Positions 10,105 through 16,604 of a DNA stretch of 41,811 nucleotides are shown here, one piece after another. Source of the stretch: Pseudomonadota bacterium (lineage in GTDB: Bacteria; Pseudomonadota; Gammaproteobacteria; Burkholderiales; Burkholderiaceae_C); assembly GCA_021808525.1 (NCBI GenBank), contig JAKBBK010000015.1:5547-47357 (forward strand). The letters are read 5' to 3'. Each line of letters begins with the position of its first letter. The first letter of the stretch is position 1. The position numbers and the translations under genes were made by a program. The notes under the pieces are model-generated. The model made no database searches and was not told the origin of the DNA. It saw nothing but the letters and a program-made list of their open reading frames with translations.

Positions 10105-10590
10105 ATGTCTGCGCAGTGGATGGATCGCCTCGATTTCCGTGCACCGGATGCCTCCGGCTGCGCGCAGGTCTGGGCGTCCCGGCGCAACTGCTCCATCAGC
10201 CCGCGCCAGCTGCTGGGGTTTTTCGTGTCCCTGAGCCTGCTGTCGCTGCTGGTGGCGGGCCTGTGCTGGGTGAGCGGAGCCAAGCTGGTGACGCCGTTCA
10301 CCCTGCTGGAGCTTCTGGTCATGGCCGGCGCGCTGCTGGCCTACGCACGCCATGCGGCCGACCGGGAGCGCGTGGAATTCGGCCCGGAGTTCGTGGTCGT
10401 GGAATGGGAATGCGCCGGGCGCGTGGAGCGTACCGAGCTGCCGACCCGCCAGACCCGCATCCTGGTGCATGACAACGGCCTGATCGTGTTCAAGGCGGGG
10501 CAGGCGCAGGCCTTCGCCGGGCGGTACACGCGGGCCGAGCGCCGCGAGAAGCTGGCGCGCGAGCTGCGGCGCGCCCTGATTGCGGCCTGA
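10105..10590 (+). CDS. DUF2244 membrane protein of the cox cluster
   Basis: This 161-residue protein has two closely spaced transmembrane helices (about residues 36-58 and 64-80, LLGFFVSLSLLSLLVAGLCW and LLELLVMAGALLAYARHA). They are preceded by a short soluble segment with the R-N-C-S-I-S-P pattern and followed by a basic cytoplasmic domain (ADRERVEFGPEFVVVEWE). This architecture is DUF2244, which in Burkholderiales regularly stands directly before the cytochrome c oxidase genes. Its biochemical role is not established; a role in oxidase assembly is inferred from context. Its stop is immediately followed by an upstream in-frame GTG of coxB. Confidence 0.82.
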   Translation: MSAQWMDRLDFRAPDASGCAQVWASRRNCSISPRQLLGFFVSLSLLSLLVAGLCWVSGAKLVTPFTLLELLVMAGALLAYARHAADRERVEFGPEFVVVEWECAGRVERTELPTRQTRILVHDNGLIVFKAGQAQAFAGRYTRAERREKLARELRRALIAA

Positions 10591-10620
10591 GTGAAATCTT
10601 TCCATAAGGTGACATCGAAG

Positions 10621-11469
10621 ATGAAACTGAAGCACTATGCGACCCTGGCTTCGGCCTTGTTCGTCTCCACGGCGTTCGCCGCGAAGAGCCTGCCCGGGGG
10701 GCCGCAGGTCAACGGAATCGATTTCCAGCAGCCCGTCACCAGCATCGCCTACGACCAGCGCTGGCTGAACTACATGGTCATGCTGATCTGCCTGGCCATC
10801 GGCGTTCTGGTGTTCGGCGTGATGTTCTATTCGGTGATCAAGCACCGCAAGTCCAAGGGGGCGGTGCCCGCGAAGTTCCACGAGAGCACCACGGTCGAGG
10901 TGATCTGGACCGTCATCCCGCTGATCATCGTGATCGCCATGGTGATCCCGGCGACCAAGGTGGTGCTCGCGCAGGAAGACGTGGGCCACTCCTTCATGAC
11001 CGTCAAGGTCACCGGCTACCAGTGGAAGTGGAGCTACGACTACCTGGACGGCCCGGGCAAGGGCATTTCCTTCTACTCCACGCTGACCACGCCGATGGCC
11101 GAGGTCTACGGCAAGGAGCCCAAGCCCGACAACTACCTGCTGCAGGTCGACCATCCGCTGGTGGTGCCGGTCAACGAGAAGGTGCGCATCCTGACCACCT
11201 CGGCCGACGTGCTGCACGGCTGGTACGTGCCGGCCTTCGGCGTGCAGATGGACGCCATTCCCGGCGCCACGCGCGAGACCTGGTTCAAGGTGGAAAAGCC
11301 CGGCACCTACTACGGCCAGTGCGCGCAGATCTGCGGCAAGGGACATGCCTTCATGCCCATCGTGGTCAAGGTGCTGCCTCTGGACCAGTACCAGGCCTGG
11401 GTGCAGTCGACCCGGGCCGAGCTGAAGAAGGACGGCGGCTCCTTCCCGCCCTCCGGCGCGGTCAGCTGA
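10621..11469 (+). CDS. coxB: cytochrome c oxidase subunit II
   Basis: This 282-residue subunit accepts electrons from cytochrome c through the binuclear CuA centre. The signal peptide is MKLKHYATLASALFVSTAFA. Two transmembrane helices follow (about 45-70 and 88-110), then a cupredoxin domain with the Trp-rich electron-entry segment VTGYQWKWSYDY. CuA ligands are visible: His in VLHGWYVPAFG and C234, C238, H242, M245 in CAQICGKGHAFM. The residue between the cysteines is Gln236, where aa3 oxidases normally have Glu. An in-frame GTG at 10591 would add 10 residues; ATG 10621 gives a cleaner signal peptide and has AAGGTG upstream. coxA, which usually follows directly, is absent. Confidence 0.95.
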   Translation: MKLKHYATLASALFVSTAFAAKSLPGGPQVNGIDFQQPVTSIAYDQRWLNYMVMLICLAIGVLVFGVMFYSVIKHRKSKGAVPAKFHESTTVEVIWTVIPLIIVIAMVIPATKVVLAQEDVGHSFMTVKVTGYQWKWSYDYLDGPGKGISFYSTLTTPMAEVYGKEPKPDNYLLQVDHPLVVPVNEKVRILTTSADVLHGWYVPAFGVQMDAIPGATRETWFKVEKPGTYYGQCAQICGKGHAFMPIVVKVLPLDQYQAWVQSTRAELKKDGGSFPPSGAVS

Positions 11470-11506
11470 GCGGCGCGTGTCCGACGCATCCTCCCGGTCT
11501 CCGGCC

Positions 11507-11620
11507 ATGTCCCGACTTCCCGCCGACAAGCGTCGCAGCAACCTGCGCCTGGCTCTGATCACGCTGAGCATCGCCGTCGTGCTGCTCGTCGGGTTCATCC
11601 TGCGCTGGACCCTGCTGTGA
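11507..11620 (+). CDS. cytochrome oxidase small assembly protein
   Basis: This 37-residue ORF has a basic N terminus (MSRLPADKRRSNLRL) followed by one transmembrane helix (ALITLSIAVVLLVGFIL). It matches the short single-span protein annotated as cytochrome oxidase small assembly protein in Burkholderiales, which normally lies between coxA and ctaG. Here it lies 37 bp after coxB and 39 bp before DUF2970, so both usual neighbours are missing. Function in oxidase assembly is inferred from this conserved position. Confidence 0.8.
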   Translation: MSRLPADKRRSNLRLALITLSIAVVLLVGFILRWTLL

Positions 11621-11659
11621 CGCCCTCCCGTCACGGCAGGGGCTGATCCCTCGCGCATC

Positions 11660-11854
11660 ATGGGCTCCTTTCTCAGCGCCTTCCGGGCCATCTTCTGGGC
11701 CTTCCTGGGCGTGCGCAAGTCGAAGGACCGCGAGCGCGACTTCGCGAACCTGAACATCCTCCATATCGTCATCGCAGGCCTGGTCGGCGCCGCGCTGTTC
11801 GTCGGCCTGCTGATGTTGATCGTGCATTGGGTCATTTCCAACCCTCATTCCTAA
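11660..11854 (+). CDS. DUF2970 small membrane protein of the cox cluster
   Basis: This 64-residue protein has an amphipathic N terminus (FLSAFRAIFWAFLGVRKSKD) and one C-terminal transmembrane helix (LHIVIAGLVGAALFVGLLMLIV). The family is DUF2970, typically found between ctaG and coxC in betaproteobacteria. Here ctaG is absent upstream. It ends 16 bp before coxC. Role unknown beyond its constant association with cytochrome oxidase genes. Confidence 0.8.
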   Translation: MGSFLSAFRAIFWAFLGVRKSKDRERDFANLNILHIVIAGLVGAALFVGLLMLIVHWVISNPHS

Positions 11855-11870: not shown

Positions 11871-12728
11871 ATGTCGTCATCCAGCCAACCCTCGGGTTAT
11901 TTCGTTCCGAGTCCATCACCCTTCCCGGTGATGGCGGCCACCTGCCTGGTGGCCATGGCCTTCGGCGCCGGCCTGTGGTTCAACGACGTCCCGCATGCGC
12001 AGTGGCTGCTGCTGGTGGGCCTGCTGGGCTTCCTGGGCACGCTGTACAAGTGGTTCGGGCGCGCCATCTCGGAAAGCGAGGGGGGCCTGCACAACCAGGC
12101 GGTGGATTCGTCCTTCCGCTGGAGCATGAGCTGGTTCATTTTTTCCGAGGTGATGTTCTTCGCCTCGTTCTTCGGGGCCCTCTACTACGCGCGGGTGTGG
12201 GCGTTGCCCGACCTGGCCGCCTTGCACAACCAGGTGCTGTGGCCGCATTTCCAGGCGGCCTGGCCCAGCGTCGGCCCCGGCGGGCTGATCCCCGCGGTGC
12301 ATGCCATGGACCCCTGGCCCATCCCGACGATCAACACCGCGCTGCTGCTGACCTCCGGCCTGACGCTGACCATCTCCCACCATGCGCTGCGCGCCGATCA
12401 TCGCCGCAAGGCCATTTTCTGGCTGTCGCTGACCATCGCGCTGGGCGTGGCCTTCCTGTTCATGCAGGGCTTCGAGTACCACCACGCCTACACCGAGATG
12501 GGGCTGAAGCTGACCTCGGGCATCTACGGCGCGACCTTTTTCATGCTCACCGGCTTCCACGGCTTCCACGTGTTCCTGGGAGCGACCATGCTCTCCGTGG
12601 TGCTGTACCGCCTGGTGCGCGGGGATTTCGAGGCCGACCACCATTTCGCCTTCGAAGGCGCCGCCTGGTACTGGCACTTCGTCGACGTGGTGTGGTTGCT
12701 GCTGTACGTGCTGGTGTACTGGCTGTGA
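11871..12728 (+). CDS. coxC: cytochrome c oxidase subunit III
   Basis: This 285-residue integral membrane protein has seven predicted spans. Family hallmarks are WSMSWFIFSEVMFFASFFGALYYAR with the conserved Glu, the His-rich TISHHAL, GFEYHHAYTEM, TGFHGFHVFLG and the terminal WYWHFVDVVWLLLYVLVYW. Subunit III stabilises subunit I and shapes the oxygen and proton entry region. It is a free-standing subunit, not a CoxA-CoxC fusion, which makes the missing coxA more striking. ATG at 11871 follows GAGGAAG. Two hairpins lie downstream. Confidence 0.95.
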   Translation: MSSSSQPSGYFVPSPSPFPVMAATCLVAMAFGAGLWFNDVPHAQWLLLVGLLGFLGTLYKWFGRAISESEGGLHNQAVDSSFRWSMSWFIFSEVMFFASFFGALYYARVWALPDLAALHNQVLWPHFQAAWPSVGPGGLIPAVHAMDPWPIPTINTALLLTSGLTLTISHHALRADHRRKAIFWLSLTIALGVAFLFMQGFEYHHAYTEMGLKLTSGIYGATFFMLTGFHGFHVFLGATMLSVVLYRLVRGDFEADHHFAFEGAAWYWHFVDVVWLLLYVLVYWL

Positions 12729-12815: not shown

Positions 12816-13028
12816 TCAGCGCGGGCTCAGCGGAATGCCGCTGGGGTGGATCCACCCCATCCTGTAGCTCAGCAGGATGAACAGGAACAACAGGATCGAG
12901 AATCCGATCCGGAACGTCAGGGCGTTGACCGCGCGGTTGGACTTGCCCTTGTCCTTCATCACGAAGTACAGCCCGGAGAACAGGCTGCCGAGGATGAGCA
13001 CGAAGGCGATGAGGACGACGATGCGCAA
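12816..13028 (-). CDS. DUF2909 small membrane protein
   Basis: This 70-residue protein has two transmembrane helices (RIVVLIAFVLILGSLFSGLYFVM and RIGFSILLFLFILLSYRMGW) joined by the basic loop KDKGKSNRAVNALTF, typical of DUF2909, the twin transmembrane protein of betaproteobacterial cox clusters. I chose the TTG at 13028 because it begins directly at the conserved RIVVLI and has AGGAG about 8 bases upstream; no ATG or GTG fits. It is antisense to its neighbours and starts only 30 bp from the SURF1 start, so the two share a very short divergent control region. Confidence 0.75.
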   Translation of the reverse strand: MRIVVLIAFVLILGSLFSGLYFVMKDKGKSNRAVNALTFRIGFSILLFLFILLSYRMGWIHPSGIPLSPR

Positions 13029-13058
13029 GGCTGGGCTCCTGCTTGGGTGAATGAGGTG

Positions 13059-13832
13059 ATGTCGAAGCCGATTGTCCCACCGGCTGCGCCGCAAGGTGCG
13101 GCGCCCGGCTTGCGACCGCGGGAAATCTTGACCGTGATCGCCTCGCTGGCGCTGATCGCGCTGCTCGCGCGGCTGGGCGTGTGGCAGCTCGATCGCGCGC
13201 ACTACAAGCAGGCGCTGGCGGCGAGCATCGCCAGCCGCGAGCACATGCCCGGCCTGGAACTGGGCCCGCGGGGCGTGGATTTCGCCCGCGCCGAATGGCG
13301 CCCGGTGCACGCGCGCGGCACCTGGGCCGGCGCACTGACCGTGTACCTGCAGAATCGCCAGTACCAGGGGGTCAGCGGTTTCTGGGTGTTCACGCCCTTG
13401 CGCCTGGCGGGCTCGGACACCTACGTGATGGTCGAGCGCGGCTGGGCGGGCCCCGACACCCACGCGCCGATGCTGGTGCCGCCCATTCCCAGCCCGCCGG
13501 GCATGGTGGAGGTGCGCGGGCGCATTGCACCCGCACCGTCCCAATGGTTTTCTTTCGCCAAAGACCCTCCTGGCGCCATGGTGCGCCAGAATGTCCAACT
13601 TCCCCAGTTCGCCGCCTACCACCACATCCGTCTCCTGCCCTACGTGATCCAGCAACTGGGCACGGACGACGAGGGACTGGTGCGCGACTGGCCCGCTCCG
13701 GATCTCGGCATGCAGACCAACTACGGCTACGCCTTCCAGTGGTTCGCGATGAGCGCGACCTGCATGGGGCTGCTCGTGTACTTCACCACGCGCACCCTGC
13801 GCCGTCGGCGCGCCGCGGGGGGCTCGCGATGA
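13059..13832 (+). CDS. SURF1 family cytochrome oxidase biogenesis protein
   Basis: This 257-residue protein has N-terminal and C-terminal transmembrane helices (LTVIASLALIALLARLGVWQL and FQWFAMSATCMGLLVYF) flanking a periplasmic domain. SURF1 hallmarks are GVWQLDRAHYKQAL, the extended segment NRQYQGVSGFWVFTPLRL, and VERGWAGPD. SURF1 proteins bind heme a and help insert it into subunit I. ATG 13059 was chosen; an in-frame GTG at 13047 would add four residues. Its stop overlaps the next start by four bases (ATGA), so the two are translationally coupled. Its substrate, subunit I, is not encoded here. Confidence 0.92.
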   Translation: MSKPIVPPAAPQGAAPGLRPREILTVIASLALIALLARLGVWQLDRAHYKQALAASIASREHMPGLELGPRGVDFARAEWRPVHARGTWAGALTVYLQNRQYQGVSGFWVFTPLRLAGSDTYVMVERGWAGPDTHAPMLVPPIPSPPGMVEVRGRIAPAPSQWFSFAKDPPGAMVRQNVQLPQFAAYHHIRLLPYVIQQLGTDDEGLVRDWPAPDLGMQTNYGYAFQWFAMSATCMGLLVYFTTRTLRRRRAAGGSR

Positions 13833-14527
13833 AGGCGCTGCAGGCGAATCCGGCGCCGGCGGGCAGGCCCGGCGTGCCGCGCAGGCGAGCCGCCCTGTGG
13901 TGGCTGGCAGCCGTGGTGCTGTTGCCCCTGCTGGCCACGCTGTACGTGGGCCTGGTGGAGCATCGCGGAGGCAAGCCCGCGTACGGCGAACTCGTGCAGC
14001 CCCAGCGCCCGGTGCCGCGCCTGAGCCTGCGCACCCTCGACGGCAAGCCCTTCGAGCTGCGCAGTCTCAACGGCTACTGGCTGATGCTGGTGGCGGCACC
14101 CGCGTCCTGCGACGCCGCCTGCCAGCGTCTGTTGTTCGACATGCGCCAGTTCTACCTGGCCTCCGGCAACGACCAGTACCGGGTGGCCCGCGTCTGGCTG
14201 GTCACCGACGGCGCTGCGGTGAACCCCGGGGTGCTGGCGCCGGCCGCCGGAACGGTGATCCTGCGCGCCGACCCCGCCCAACTGCGCGCCTGGCTGCCGC
14301 TGGCCCGGGGCGAGGGCCTGCAGGGCCCCATGTGGCTGGTGGACCCGCTGGGCAACCTGATGCTGCGATTTCCCGCGGGCTTCGATCCGGTACGCGCGCT
14401 CGGCGTGTTCGGCAAGCTGCTCTACAACACCCAGTCCTGGAAGTCGCGGCGCCTGCAGCCGCTGCCGATCGCCAGGGATCCATCCGTCCCCGGCCCTGGT
14501 GCCGCGGGCGCGGGGGCCAAGCCATGA
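13829..14527 (+). CDS. SCO-like thioredoxin-fold membrane protein of the cox cluster
   Basis: This 232-residue protein has one N-terminal transmembrane helix (about residues 23-42) and a thioredoxin-like domain. The domain opens with VPRLSLRTLDGKPFELRSLNGYW and carries a C-D-A-A-C motif in PASCDAACQRL, the spacing of the CXXXC copper site of SCO proteins. SCO proteins deliver copper to CuA of subunit II. It is shorter in conserved features than classical SCO1/SenC and I do not see the distal copper-ligand His clearly, so a redox or assembly role is also possible. Overlaps SURF1 and ctaA by four bases each. Confidence 0.75.
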   Translation: MKALQANPAPAGRPGVPRRRAALWWLAAVVLLPLLATLYVGLVEHRGGKPAYGELVQPQRPVPRLSLRTLDGKPFELRSLNGYWLMLVAAPASCDAACQRLLFDMRQFYLASGNDQYRVARVWLVTDGAAVNPGVLAPAAGTVILRADPAQLRAWLPLARGEGLQGPMWLVDPLGNLMLRFPAGFDPVRALGVFGKLLYNTQSWKSRRLQPLPIARDPSVPGPGAAGAGAKP

Positions 14528-15708
14528 TGAGTCCGTCGCTTCCGTCCAATCTGGTGCACAACATGTACCAGGCCGTCCCCACCGTCTGGTTGTTCTCGCT
14601 GCACTGGCTGCAGGCCGGCATGTGGCTGATCGGCCTGCTGCTGGTGGTCTGGGCGGGCATGCGCATGCGCTGGTCGCGCCTGGTGGCGCTGCTGGTGTTC
14701 CTGACCATGGACCTGGTCATGTTCGGGGCCTTCGTGCGCCTGACCGACGCGGGTCTGGGCTGTCCCGACTGGCCGGGTTGCTACGGGCGTCTCACGCCCG
14801 CGCAGGCGCATGTGCAGATCCACCAGGCGGTGGCCGAGGAGGGCGGCACCCAGGGCAACGTGAGCCCCTTCAAGGCCTGGGTGGAAATGATCCACCGCTA
14901 CGTGGCCACCATCATCGGCGCCCTGATCACGGTGATGGCCGCGCGCGCGCTGTGGGCTCGCAGGAAGGGGCAGGCCCTGCGCGTGGGGCTGCCGCTGCTG
15001 TTGTTCGCATGGATCATCGTGCAGGGCATGTTCGGTGCCTGGACCGTCACCCTGCTGCTCAAGCCGCTGATCGTCACCCTGCACCTGATGGGGGGCATCG
15101 TGCTGCTGCTGCTGGCGGCCTGGTTCTGGATGCGCAACCGCCCCGACATGCAGCCGCTGGACGCCGGGGCCGCCACGCGCTGGCTCACCCTCGTCGCGCT
15201 GGCCGGGCTGCTGGTGCAGATCTTCCTGGGCGGCTGGGTGAGCACCAACTACGCCGCGCTGGCCTGCTCGGGCTTTCCCACCTGCAACGGCAGCTGGAAC
15301 CCGCCAGCCGACTGGAGCGCCGGTTTCACCATGTGGCGTGACCTCGGGCGCATGCCCGACGGCTCGGCGATCACCCTGCAGGCGCTGATTGCCATCCATT
15401 GGGCGCATCGGCTGTTCGCCGTGGTGGCTTCCGCGCTGGTGCTCGGCGCCGCCGGCATGCTGGCGCGCCTGCGCGAACTTCGGCGACTCGCGGCCTGGCT
15501 GGTGCTGGCGCTGCTGACCCAGATCGCCCTGGGCGTCAGCGTGGTGCTGCTGCAACACCCGCTGGTGCCCGCGGTGGCCCACAATGGAGTGGCGGCACTG
15601 ATGGTGCTGCTCTTGACCACTGCGGCCTGGCGCACCTCGGGTGGGCGCCGGGAACGCCGCGCTGCCGCGCCGCCGGCAGGAATGCAACCCGTGCAAGGCC
15701 AATCATGA
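14524..15708 (+). CDS. ctaA: heme A synthase (COX15/CtaA)
   Basis: This 394-residue membrane protein converts heme O to heme A, the cofactor of aa3-type oxidases. It has two four-helix halves. The first has [17 protein letters not shown] and the heme-ligand region [13 protein letters not shown]; the second has [19 protein letters not shown] and [14 protein letters not shown], with His ligands and paired cysteines as in proteobacterial COX15. ATG 14524 overlaps the preceding TGA, and the stop overlaps the ctaB start. Its presence indicates that the organism makes a heme A oxidase even though coxA is not here. Confidence 0.95.
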
Positions 15709-16604
15709 AAACCGGCTCTCTTTCCCAGCCCCCAGGCGCCGTGCGCGTCGTTTCCCAACTCTACGCGCTGACCAAGCCGCGGGTGGTGCAGCTGATCGTG
15801 TTCTGCGCGGTCATCGGCATGTTCCTGTCGCAGCCCGGGCTGCCCGACTGGCGCCCGCTGCTGGCCGCCACGGCGGGCATCTGGCTGGTGGCCAGCGCCG
15901 CCGCGGCCTTCAATTGCCTGGTGGAGCAGAAGATCGATGCCGTCATGCGCCGCACCTCCTGGCGCCCCTCGGCCACGGGCGAGCTGGGCAGCGCGCCGAT
16001 CCTCGTGTTCTCCGGCCTGCTGTGCAGCTCCGGCATGGCCCTGCTGTACACCCAGGTCAACGCGCTGACCATGTGGCTGACCTTCGGCACCTTCATCGGC
16101 TACGCGGTGATCTACACGGTGCTGCTCAAGCCGGCGACCCCGCAGAACATCGTCATCGGAGGCGCTTCCGGCGCCATGCCCCCGGTGCTGGGCTGGGCCG
16201 CGATGACCAACTCGGTGTCGGCGCAGGCGCTGATCCTGTTCCTCATCATCTTCCTGTGGACTCCGCCGCATTTCTGGGCGCTGGCGCTGTATCGCACCGA
16301 GGATTACCGCAAATCGGGCCTGCCGATGCTTCCGGTGACCCATGGTTCGCGCTACACGCGGCTGCAGGCCCTGCTGTACACCCTGCTGCTCACGGTGGTG
16401 AGCCTCATGCCCTGGGCCATGCACACGGCCGGGCTGATCTACGCGCTCAGCGCGCTGGCCCTCGGAGGCGTGTTCATCGCCTACGCCACCAGGCTGCTGC
16501 GCGAGTACAGCGATGCGCTGGCGCGGGCCATGTTCCGCTACTCCATCGTCTACCTCTCGCTGCTGTTCGCGGCCATGCTGGTCGACCACTACCTGCGTTT
16601 CTGA
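15705..16604 (+). CDS. ctaB: protoheme IX farnesyltransferase (heme O synthase)
   Basis: This 299-residue UbiA-superfamily prenyltransferase adds a farnesyl group to heme B. The allylic-diphosphate/Mg motif is [15 protein letters not shown] (N-X3-E-X3-D form); the second conserved block is [32 protein letters not shown], diagnostic of CyoE/CtaB. About nine transmembrane helices are visible. Overlaps ctaA by four bases and ends the assembly run; a SenC/SCO gene that often follows is not found, the next gene being gluQ. Confidence 0.95.

Follow-up and report, generated by a model that had tools for sequence, protein, structure and literature searches.

A cytochrome c oxidase operon of Thiomonas-like bacteria without coxA and ctaG: relocated subunit I gene and probable displacement of Cox11 by Caa3_CtaG

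Within a stretch of 41,811 nucleotides (in the following referred to as the window; contig JAKBBK010000015.1 of GenBank assembly GCA_021808525.1) we analyzed an oxidase operon of the order coxB – small assembly protein – DUF2970 – coxC. The operon belongs to an A1-type (aa3) cytochrome c oxidase, for which it encodes subunits II and III as well as some of the assembly proteins. This anatomy is solidly established as common to a whole clade of Thiomonas-like bacteria, and the genes coxA and ctaG appear to be missing from it due to two events of different depth: a loss of Cox11 with its probable displacement by Caa3_CtaG, and subsequently the move of coxA to another locus, in which a duplication was followed by loss of the operon copy. 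The exchange of the chaperone is a probable reading of the sequences.

Results

The cluster starts with a gene for a DUF2244 membrane protein (10105..10590, + strand; PF10003, 96.8 bits) followed by coxB for subunit II (10591..11469, +; TIGR02866, 186.3 bits with a cut-off of 147.7; PF00116 and PF02790), which carries the CuA motif CAQICGKGHAFM and is devoid of a C-terminal cytochrome c tail. A junction of 37 bases (11470..11506, without strand), which is the coxA site in sister species and other Burkholderiales (order coxB-coxA-small protein), separates coxB from the gene of a cytochrome oxidase small assembly protein of 37 amino acids (11507..11620, +; NF038351, 31.4 bits, cut-off 27.5). The next junction of 39 bases (11621..11659, likewise without strand) represents the site of ctaG, the gene for Cox11, in other genera of the family, as deduced from the order small protein-ctaG-DUF2970 in genome G029 (locus L178). 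It is followed by a gene encoding a DUF2970 protein (11660..11854, +; PF11174, 81.7 bits), coxC for subunit III (11871..12728, +; PF00510), which is the only COX3 match of the genome, and a DUF2909 gene on the opposite strand (12816..13028, -; PF11137, 82.4 bits). Further downstream, all on the + strand and with approximate starts, are ORFs for a SURF1-type assembly protein (13050..13832; PF02104, 126.3 bits), a redoxin-like protein (13850..14527), the haem A synthase CtaA (14536..15708; PF02628, 239.6 bits) and the haem O synthase CtaB (15702..16604; PF01040 UbiA, 217.3 bits).

By these profile matches the assignments made in a preliminary description hold for DUF2244, coxB, coxC, DUF2909, SURF1, ctaA and ctaB. 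The label "SCO-like", given there to the redoxin-like protein, had to be dropped: Pfam yields no SCO1-SenC match, AhpC-TSA is weak with 19.4 bits and below its cut-off of 26, and NF058629 reaches 39.1 bits, far under its cut-off of 230. The SCO1-SenC matches of the genome are located on other contigs. Neither the open frames nor the sequence of both junctions revealed a coxA or ctaG frame between coxB and coxC, and a tblastn search of the whole window gave no match for Cox11 at E<=1 and none for coxA at E<=1e-3. A promoter-like site was not found in a promoter scan around the operon.

In proteobacterial and mitochondrial oxidases, the role of CuB chaperone is assigned to Cox11. A profile search (PF04442) of the whole draft of the window genome gave no match, and neither did any of the 28 genomes of the same genus (Thiomonas-like bacteria, including the window's own), among them the assemblies G013 with three and G021 with six contigs; the control genome, Caulobacter vibrioides, was matched. 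Nine Cox11 sequence queries matched none of 125 loci of the genus at E<=0.1, while most Cox11-bearing loci do match. In other genera of the family Cox11 was detected in all genomes covered, eight of a first set and nine added ones (17/17, from 16 genera). Elsewhere in the order, 18 of the 24 genomes of the comparison set possess Cox11, and the six negative ones contain neither Caa3_CtaG nor an A1 coxA. In a wider draw from the order, from which the nine added family genomes were taken, 193 of 300 genomes had a match and 107 had none; of these 107, 20 including the window's own were among the genomes listed, apparently in order of kinship.

A candidate substitute for Cox11 is encoded throughout the genus. 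In the literature, Cox11 or Caa3_CtaG are given as the two factors for CuB (PMC9145763), and both families are described (PMC8239418; PMC6431628). Caa3_CtaG (PF09678) was found in 28/28 genus genomes, as opposed to two of 17 family genomes from other genera (1/8 in the first and 1/9 in the added set), and in two of the 24 comparison genomes elsewhere in the order. It also occurs in 4/35 Cox11-bearing genomes and hence is not exclusive to Cox11 loss. With 160.8 bits the protein lies well above the PF09678 gathering cut-off of 27.7, and it is on PF09678 that family membership rests, as the Bacillus-type equivalog TIGR02737 gives 27.2 bits with a cut-off of 279.35. Of the 14 genus genomes in which its surroundings were read, 11 have the stronger of two copies next to an SCO1/SenC gene, as on contig C82 of the window genome, and the other three lack SCO at this place. 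In G014 the stronger copy is split over two contigs, and G027 shows no more of it than an end of 30 residues. Among 18 aligned CtaG sequences, from the genus and the four comparison sequences closest to it, H64, H69, H145, M158, M162, D59 and D233 (numbering of the window-genome protein) are invariant. A tree of 22 CtaG sequences shows long branches, and the source of the Caa3_CtaG of the genus is not settled by it.

Apart from the window's own genome, 19 of the 107 Cox11-negative genomes of the order were searched for coxA. Two of them, G068 and G092 (Burkholderiales), harbor an A1-like coxA with 67-68% identity; in five others the identity does not exceed 42-45%, a range expected of quinol oxidases. 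The G092 match was reported with one TGA, the frame being open over 525 residues. Both genomes contain Caa3_CtaG with SCO nearby, and the loci read from them gave no match for Cox11. Thus, all three Cox11-less A1 lineages carry Caa3_CtaG compared to the 4/35 Cox11-bearing genomes (Fisher p=0.004, with the genus counted once, in a post hoc test which ignores relatedness). In G092 (L183) a stretch of about 0.7 kb in which no clear gene is recognizable lies between coxA and DUF2970, at the place expected for ctaG (about 795-1500). A ctaG remnant was looked for in this gap and discarded, there being no convincing match (best E 0.12).

As an alternative, SCO and PCuAC proteins could load CuB, or no special chaperone might be needed, with Caa3_CtaG confined to the B-type oxidase or to copper handling in general; this appears rather unlikely. 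SCO is matched in 60/60 genomes (57 over the cut-off) and PCuAC in 25 of the 28 genus genomes, the second, weaker Caa3_CtaG copy of the genus is linked to the B-type oxidase, and according to a review SCO can take part in CuB assembly in some bacteria (PMC6696091). However, Cox11-bearing relatives have SCO and PCuAC just as often, so that these do not track Cox11 loss, and the stronger Caa3_CtaG, which is not the copy linked to the B-type oxidase, is present in both other Cox11-less A1 lineages as well. Of the earlier proposal that ctaG was "replaced", the loss of the gene stands, and a takeover of its role by the unrelated Caa3_CtaG is most likely.

The oxidase itself is altered in the genus, too. 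The cytochrome c (CXXCH) tail of CoxB is absent from 40/40 genus loci and kept in 8/8 family relatives, a genus-wide change of subunit II from a caa3-like to an aa3-like form. All 40 loci share the CuA motif CAQ[IV]CG[KR]GHAFM with a Gln where most others carry a Glu. In the subunit I motif H[D/N]TYYVVAHFHY the residue after the His is Asn in 31/31 genus rows and Asp in 8/8 family rows; the eight family rows have Gln in place of the first His. We take the His and Asp of this motif, together with the Glu of the CuA loop, to be the Mg2+ ligands of A-type oxidases. Both acids presumed to belong to the Mg site are replaced by neutral residues in the genus, examples being the window coxB (10591-11469) and a lone coxA (L072:15745-17373).

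G092 shows the same pair of Asn and Gln as the genus, and G068 has Gly with Glu. Consequently, the Asp of subunit I is gone in 3/3 Cox11-less A1 lineages and the Glu of subunit II is changed to Gln in two of the three. Among Cox11-bearing loci with a readable motif the Asp is missing in 3/43 (p=0.001; nine rows without readable motif and L067, whose Cox11 status was unseen, were dropped from the count). These three, G051, G057 and L060, each combine Asn with Gln, and therefore the Mg-site change also occurs with Cox11 present. In L043 Gln is found together with Asp.

The preliminary description had called for a search of the whole genome for both missing genes; it gave no match for Cox11 and located coxA on another contig. 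The profile search of the draft (144 contigs, 90% complete) yielded three COX1 matches, on contigs C32, C20 and C43. The gene on C32 (24516-26144) is an intact, canonical A1 coxA (TIGR02891, 699 bits with a cut-off of 670.75). The match on C20 reads as ccoN beside a ccoO-like frame, and that on C43 encodes a B-type subunit I, accompanied by a short COX2 protein and an SCO of its own. Since the window coxB is the only A1-type copy of the genome and the window coxC its sole COX3 gene, the subunits II and III of the window almost certainly serve the subunit I of C32. From the gene inventory, an assembly of the lone CoxA with CoxB and CoxC of the window is very likely, in agreement with the previous suggestion that the remaining subunits serve a subunit I encoded elsewhere.

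The checked CuB, haem and cross-link residues are kept in all aligned copies of coxA, 20/20 lone and 10/10 operon ones; the CuB His ligands, the cross-link Tyr and the Glu and Lys pathway residues are present in the aligned subunit I copies. Two genus-specific changes, at positions 303 and 494 of the lone coxA (581-residue reading of L001), affect sites which are otherwise fixed in 42 comparison rows, namely an exchange of Ile to Val directly after the cross-link Tyr and of Pro to Val near the C-terminus. A promoter scan near the lone coxA, weak evidence either way, gave one terminator-like site downstream of the gene in the same orientation and no sigma-70-like site.

Within the genus the gap order coxB-small protein-DUF2970-coxC was found in 16 of 28 genomes (in G004 the contig ends in DUF2970), which confirms the initial observation of a cox cluster without coxA and ctaG at their expected positions. 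There are 14 named records in this gap clade, including Thiomonas sp. FB-6 (L031), of which 13 show the full order and one (L030) ends within DUF2970; they are partly the same assemblies as in the 28-genome set and were not counted as extra. Nine genus genomes have the order coxB-coxA, and a tenth operon-coxA genome is G020 with coxA-small protein-DUF2970-coxC at a contig start. In the eight of these ten genomes whose stretch was read, no ctaG is located between coxA and coxC; in G019 and G025 the absence of ctaG is derived from the genome-wide Cox11 search only. No A1-type coxB was seen in G006 and G023.

An A1 coxA is present, complete or in pieces, in 24 of the 28 genus genomes and was not found in the drafts of G003, G004, G006 and G018. 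As for the gap genomes, 13/16 possess a lone coxA and none was seen in G003, G004 and G018 (86, 84 and 93% complete, respectively). The absence from these three drafts counts against the explanation proposed below.

In a phylogenetic tree the 31 coxA genes of the genus, lone and operon copies together, form one clade beside the coxA of the family (SH-aLRT 100, family grouping 98), and a careful tree recovered the genus clade again (100/100). The lone gene is therefore native. Twenty of the lone copies constitute a clade (100/99), the ten operon copies group together with weak support (65/85), and an extra copy of G021 (L107) falls outside both groups. The coxB tree unites all 16 genomes that lack operon coxA in a single clade (100/99), which is nested among coxA-bearing genomes. 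The shapes of both trees thus indicate that duplication came first and was followed by a single deletion of the operon copy. A luciferase-like gene near lone coxA copies of both subclades is in line with one shared genomic site, at least for these copies.

Some genomes carry additional copies. In G021, L107 is a third, divergent coxA, and at L105 a lone coxA has behind it a fragment of DUF2244 as well as a second coxB which scores the same as that of the operon. In G010 (L111) there is a further coxA copy in two frames. An evolutionary burst limited to coxA at the time of Cox11 loss was considered and found no support: the stems of the genus are long alike in the trees of coxA (0.24), coxB (0.53) and coxC (0.36).

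It is highly improbable that the native coxA was lost and a foreign one gained by gene transfer. The neighborhood of the lone gene on C32, flanked by a TPR-containing and a patatin-like gene and with an acetoacetate decarboxylase-like gene in its vicinity, is unrelated to the operon and might point to such an origin, but the single, fully supported genus clade beside the family's coxA speaks against it. Hence, from the former alternative "relocated or replaced", relocation of coxA is retained as that of a native paralog, and replacement by a foreign gene is not. That the assembly dropped a coxA and a ctaG truly located between these genes, as the draft state of the genome could suggest, is practically ruled out by the relatives sharing the same junctions (16 of 28 genomes and 13 of the 14 partly overlapping records) and by the absence of Cox11 from all 28 genomes, including those in three and six contigs.

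Discussion

The reading that we prefer, and in which we have a good deal of confidence, is an older displacement of Cox11 by Caa3_CtaG and a later relocation of coxA, with the lone CoxA serving the window operon. It draws on the observed gene content, gene order, tree shape and ligand conservation. In this reading Cox11 was lost in or before the ancestor of the genus, and CuB insertion most likely was taken over by the unrelated multi-helix Caa3_CtaG, which is usually encoded beside SCO. Early in the genus, coxA was duplicated, which resulted in a copy within the operon and a second one on its own. A single deletion then removed the operon coxA in the window's clade and left the lone copy as sole subunit I. 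The previously assumed two separate losses are recognizable in this history, as Cox11 is absent genus-wide and the operon coxA was lost once within the genus. That Caa3_CtaG loads CuB is the most likely interpretation of its distribution and conserved residues.

Thiomonas-like bacteria inhabit sulfur- and metal-rich environments, and such a habitat would fit as the setting for a swap from Cox11 to Caa3_CtaG. Under thiol-rich conditions, as suggested in PMC6431628, the Cys-based Cox11 would be outcompeted for copper, and Caa3_CtaG carries His, Asp and Met. Among the literature matches listed, there was no report on Cox11 loss in Thiomonas or Cox11 replacement in Burkholderiales, subscription journals being mostly outside the search.

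The Mg-site changes allow for a more speculative idea, which we put forward tentatively and regard as doubtful: the loss of Cox11 may be tied to a degeneration of the non-redox Mg2+/Mn2+ site, with Cox11 mainly stabilizing oxidases with a full Mg site and otherwise being dispensable. Once the site is altered, a His/Met/Asp-based chaperone like Caa3_CtaG could possibly load CuB. Cox11p is said to be required for stable CuB and magnesium centers (Hiser et al., 2000); given this title claim, the link between Cox11 and the Mg site is worth testing.

With a native A1 oxidase kept and Cox11 apparently swapped for Caa3_CtaG, the genus offers a natural replacement experiment in which an almost unchanged enzyme allows both chaperones to be compared, and the changes at the Mg site provide a test of a role of Cox11 beyond copper delivery. 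Since the NF038351 protein and DUF2970 have been retained despite the absence of Cox11, and in one clade also of an adjacent coxA, they are probably not only partners of Cox11. An annotation based on the operon alone would wrongly label these species as oxidase-defective.

Compared with the caa3-type operon of Burkholderiales (coxB-coxA-small protein-ctaG-DUF2970-coxC-SURF1, as in G029, L178), the window operon has the same genes in the same order save the two gaps, and the window's clade shares the native coxA ancestry. In contrast to it, the genus is devoid of ctaG and the cytochrome c tail of CoxB, and in the window's clade coxA is located outside the operon. Caa3_CtaG is known from Bacillus subtilis and many Alphaproteobacteria. 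The protein of the genus shares the Pfam family and the conserved His, Met and Asp positions with these, but it remains far under the cut-off of the Bacillus-type equivalog, is encoded beside SCO and outside the cox operon, and is a candidate stand-in for Cox11 in a Burkholderiales-type oxidase. In the aa3 oxidase of Paracoccus denitrificans a gene for subunit I presumably lies apart from the cluster of subunits II and III, as in the window's clade. According to PMC9145763, surf1c of P. denitrificans is linked to subunits II and III only, and this organism keeps Cox11, whereas the genus described here is without it.
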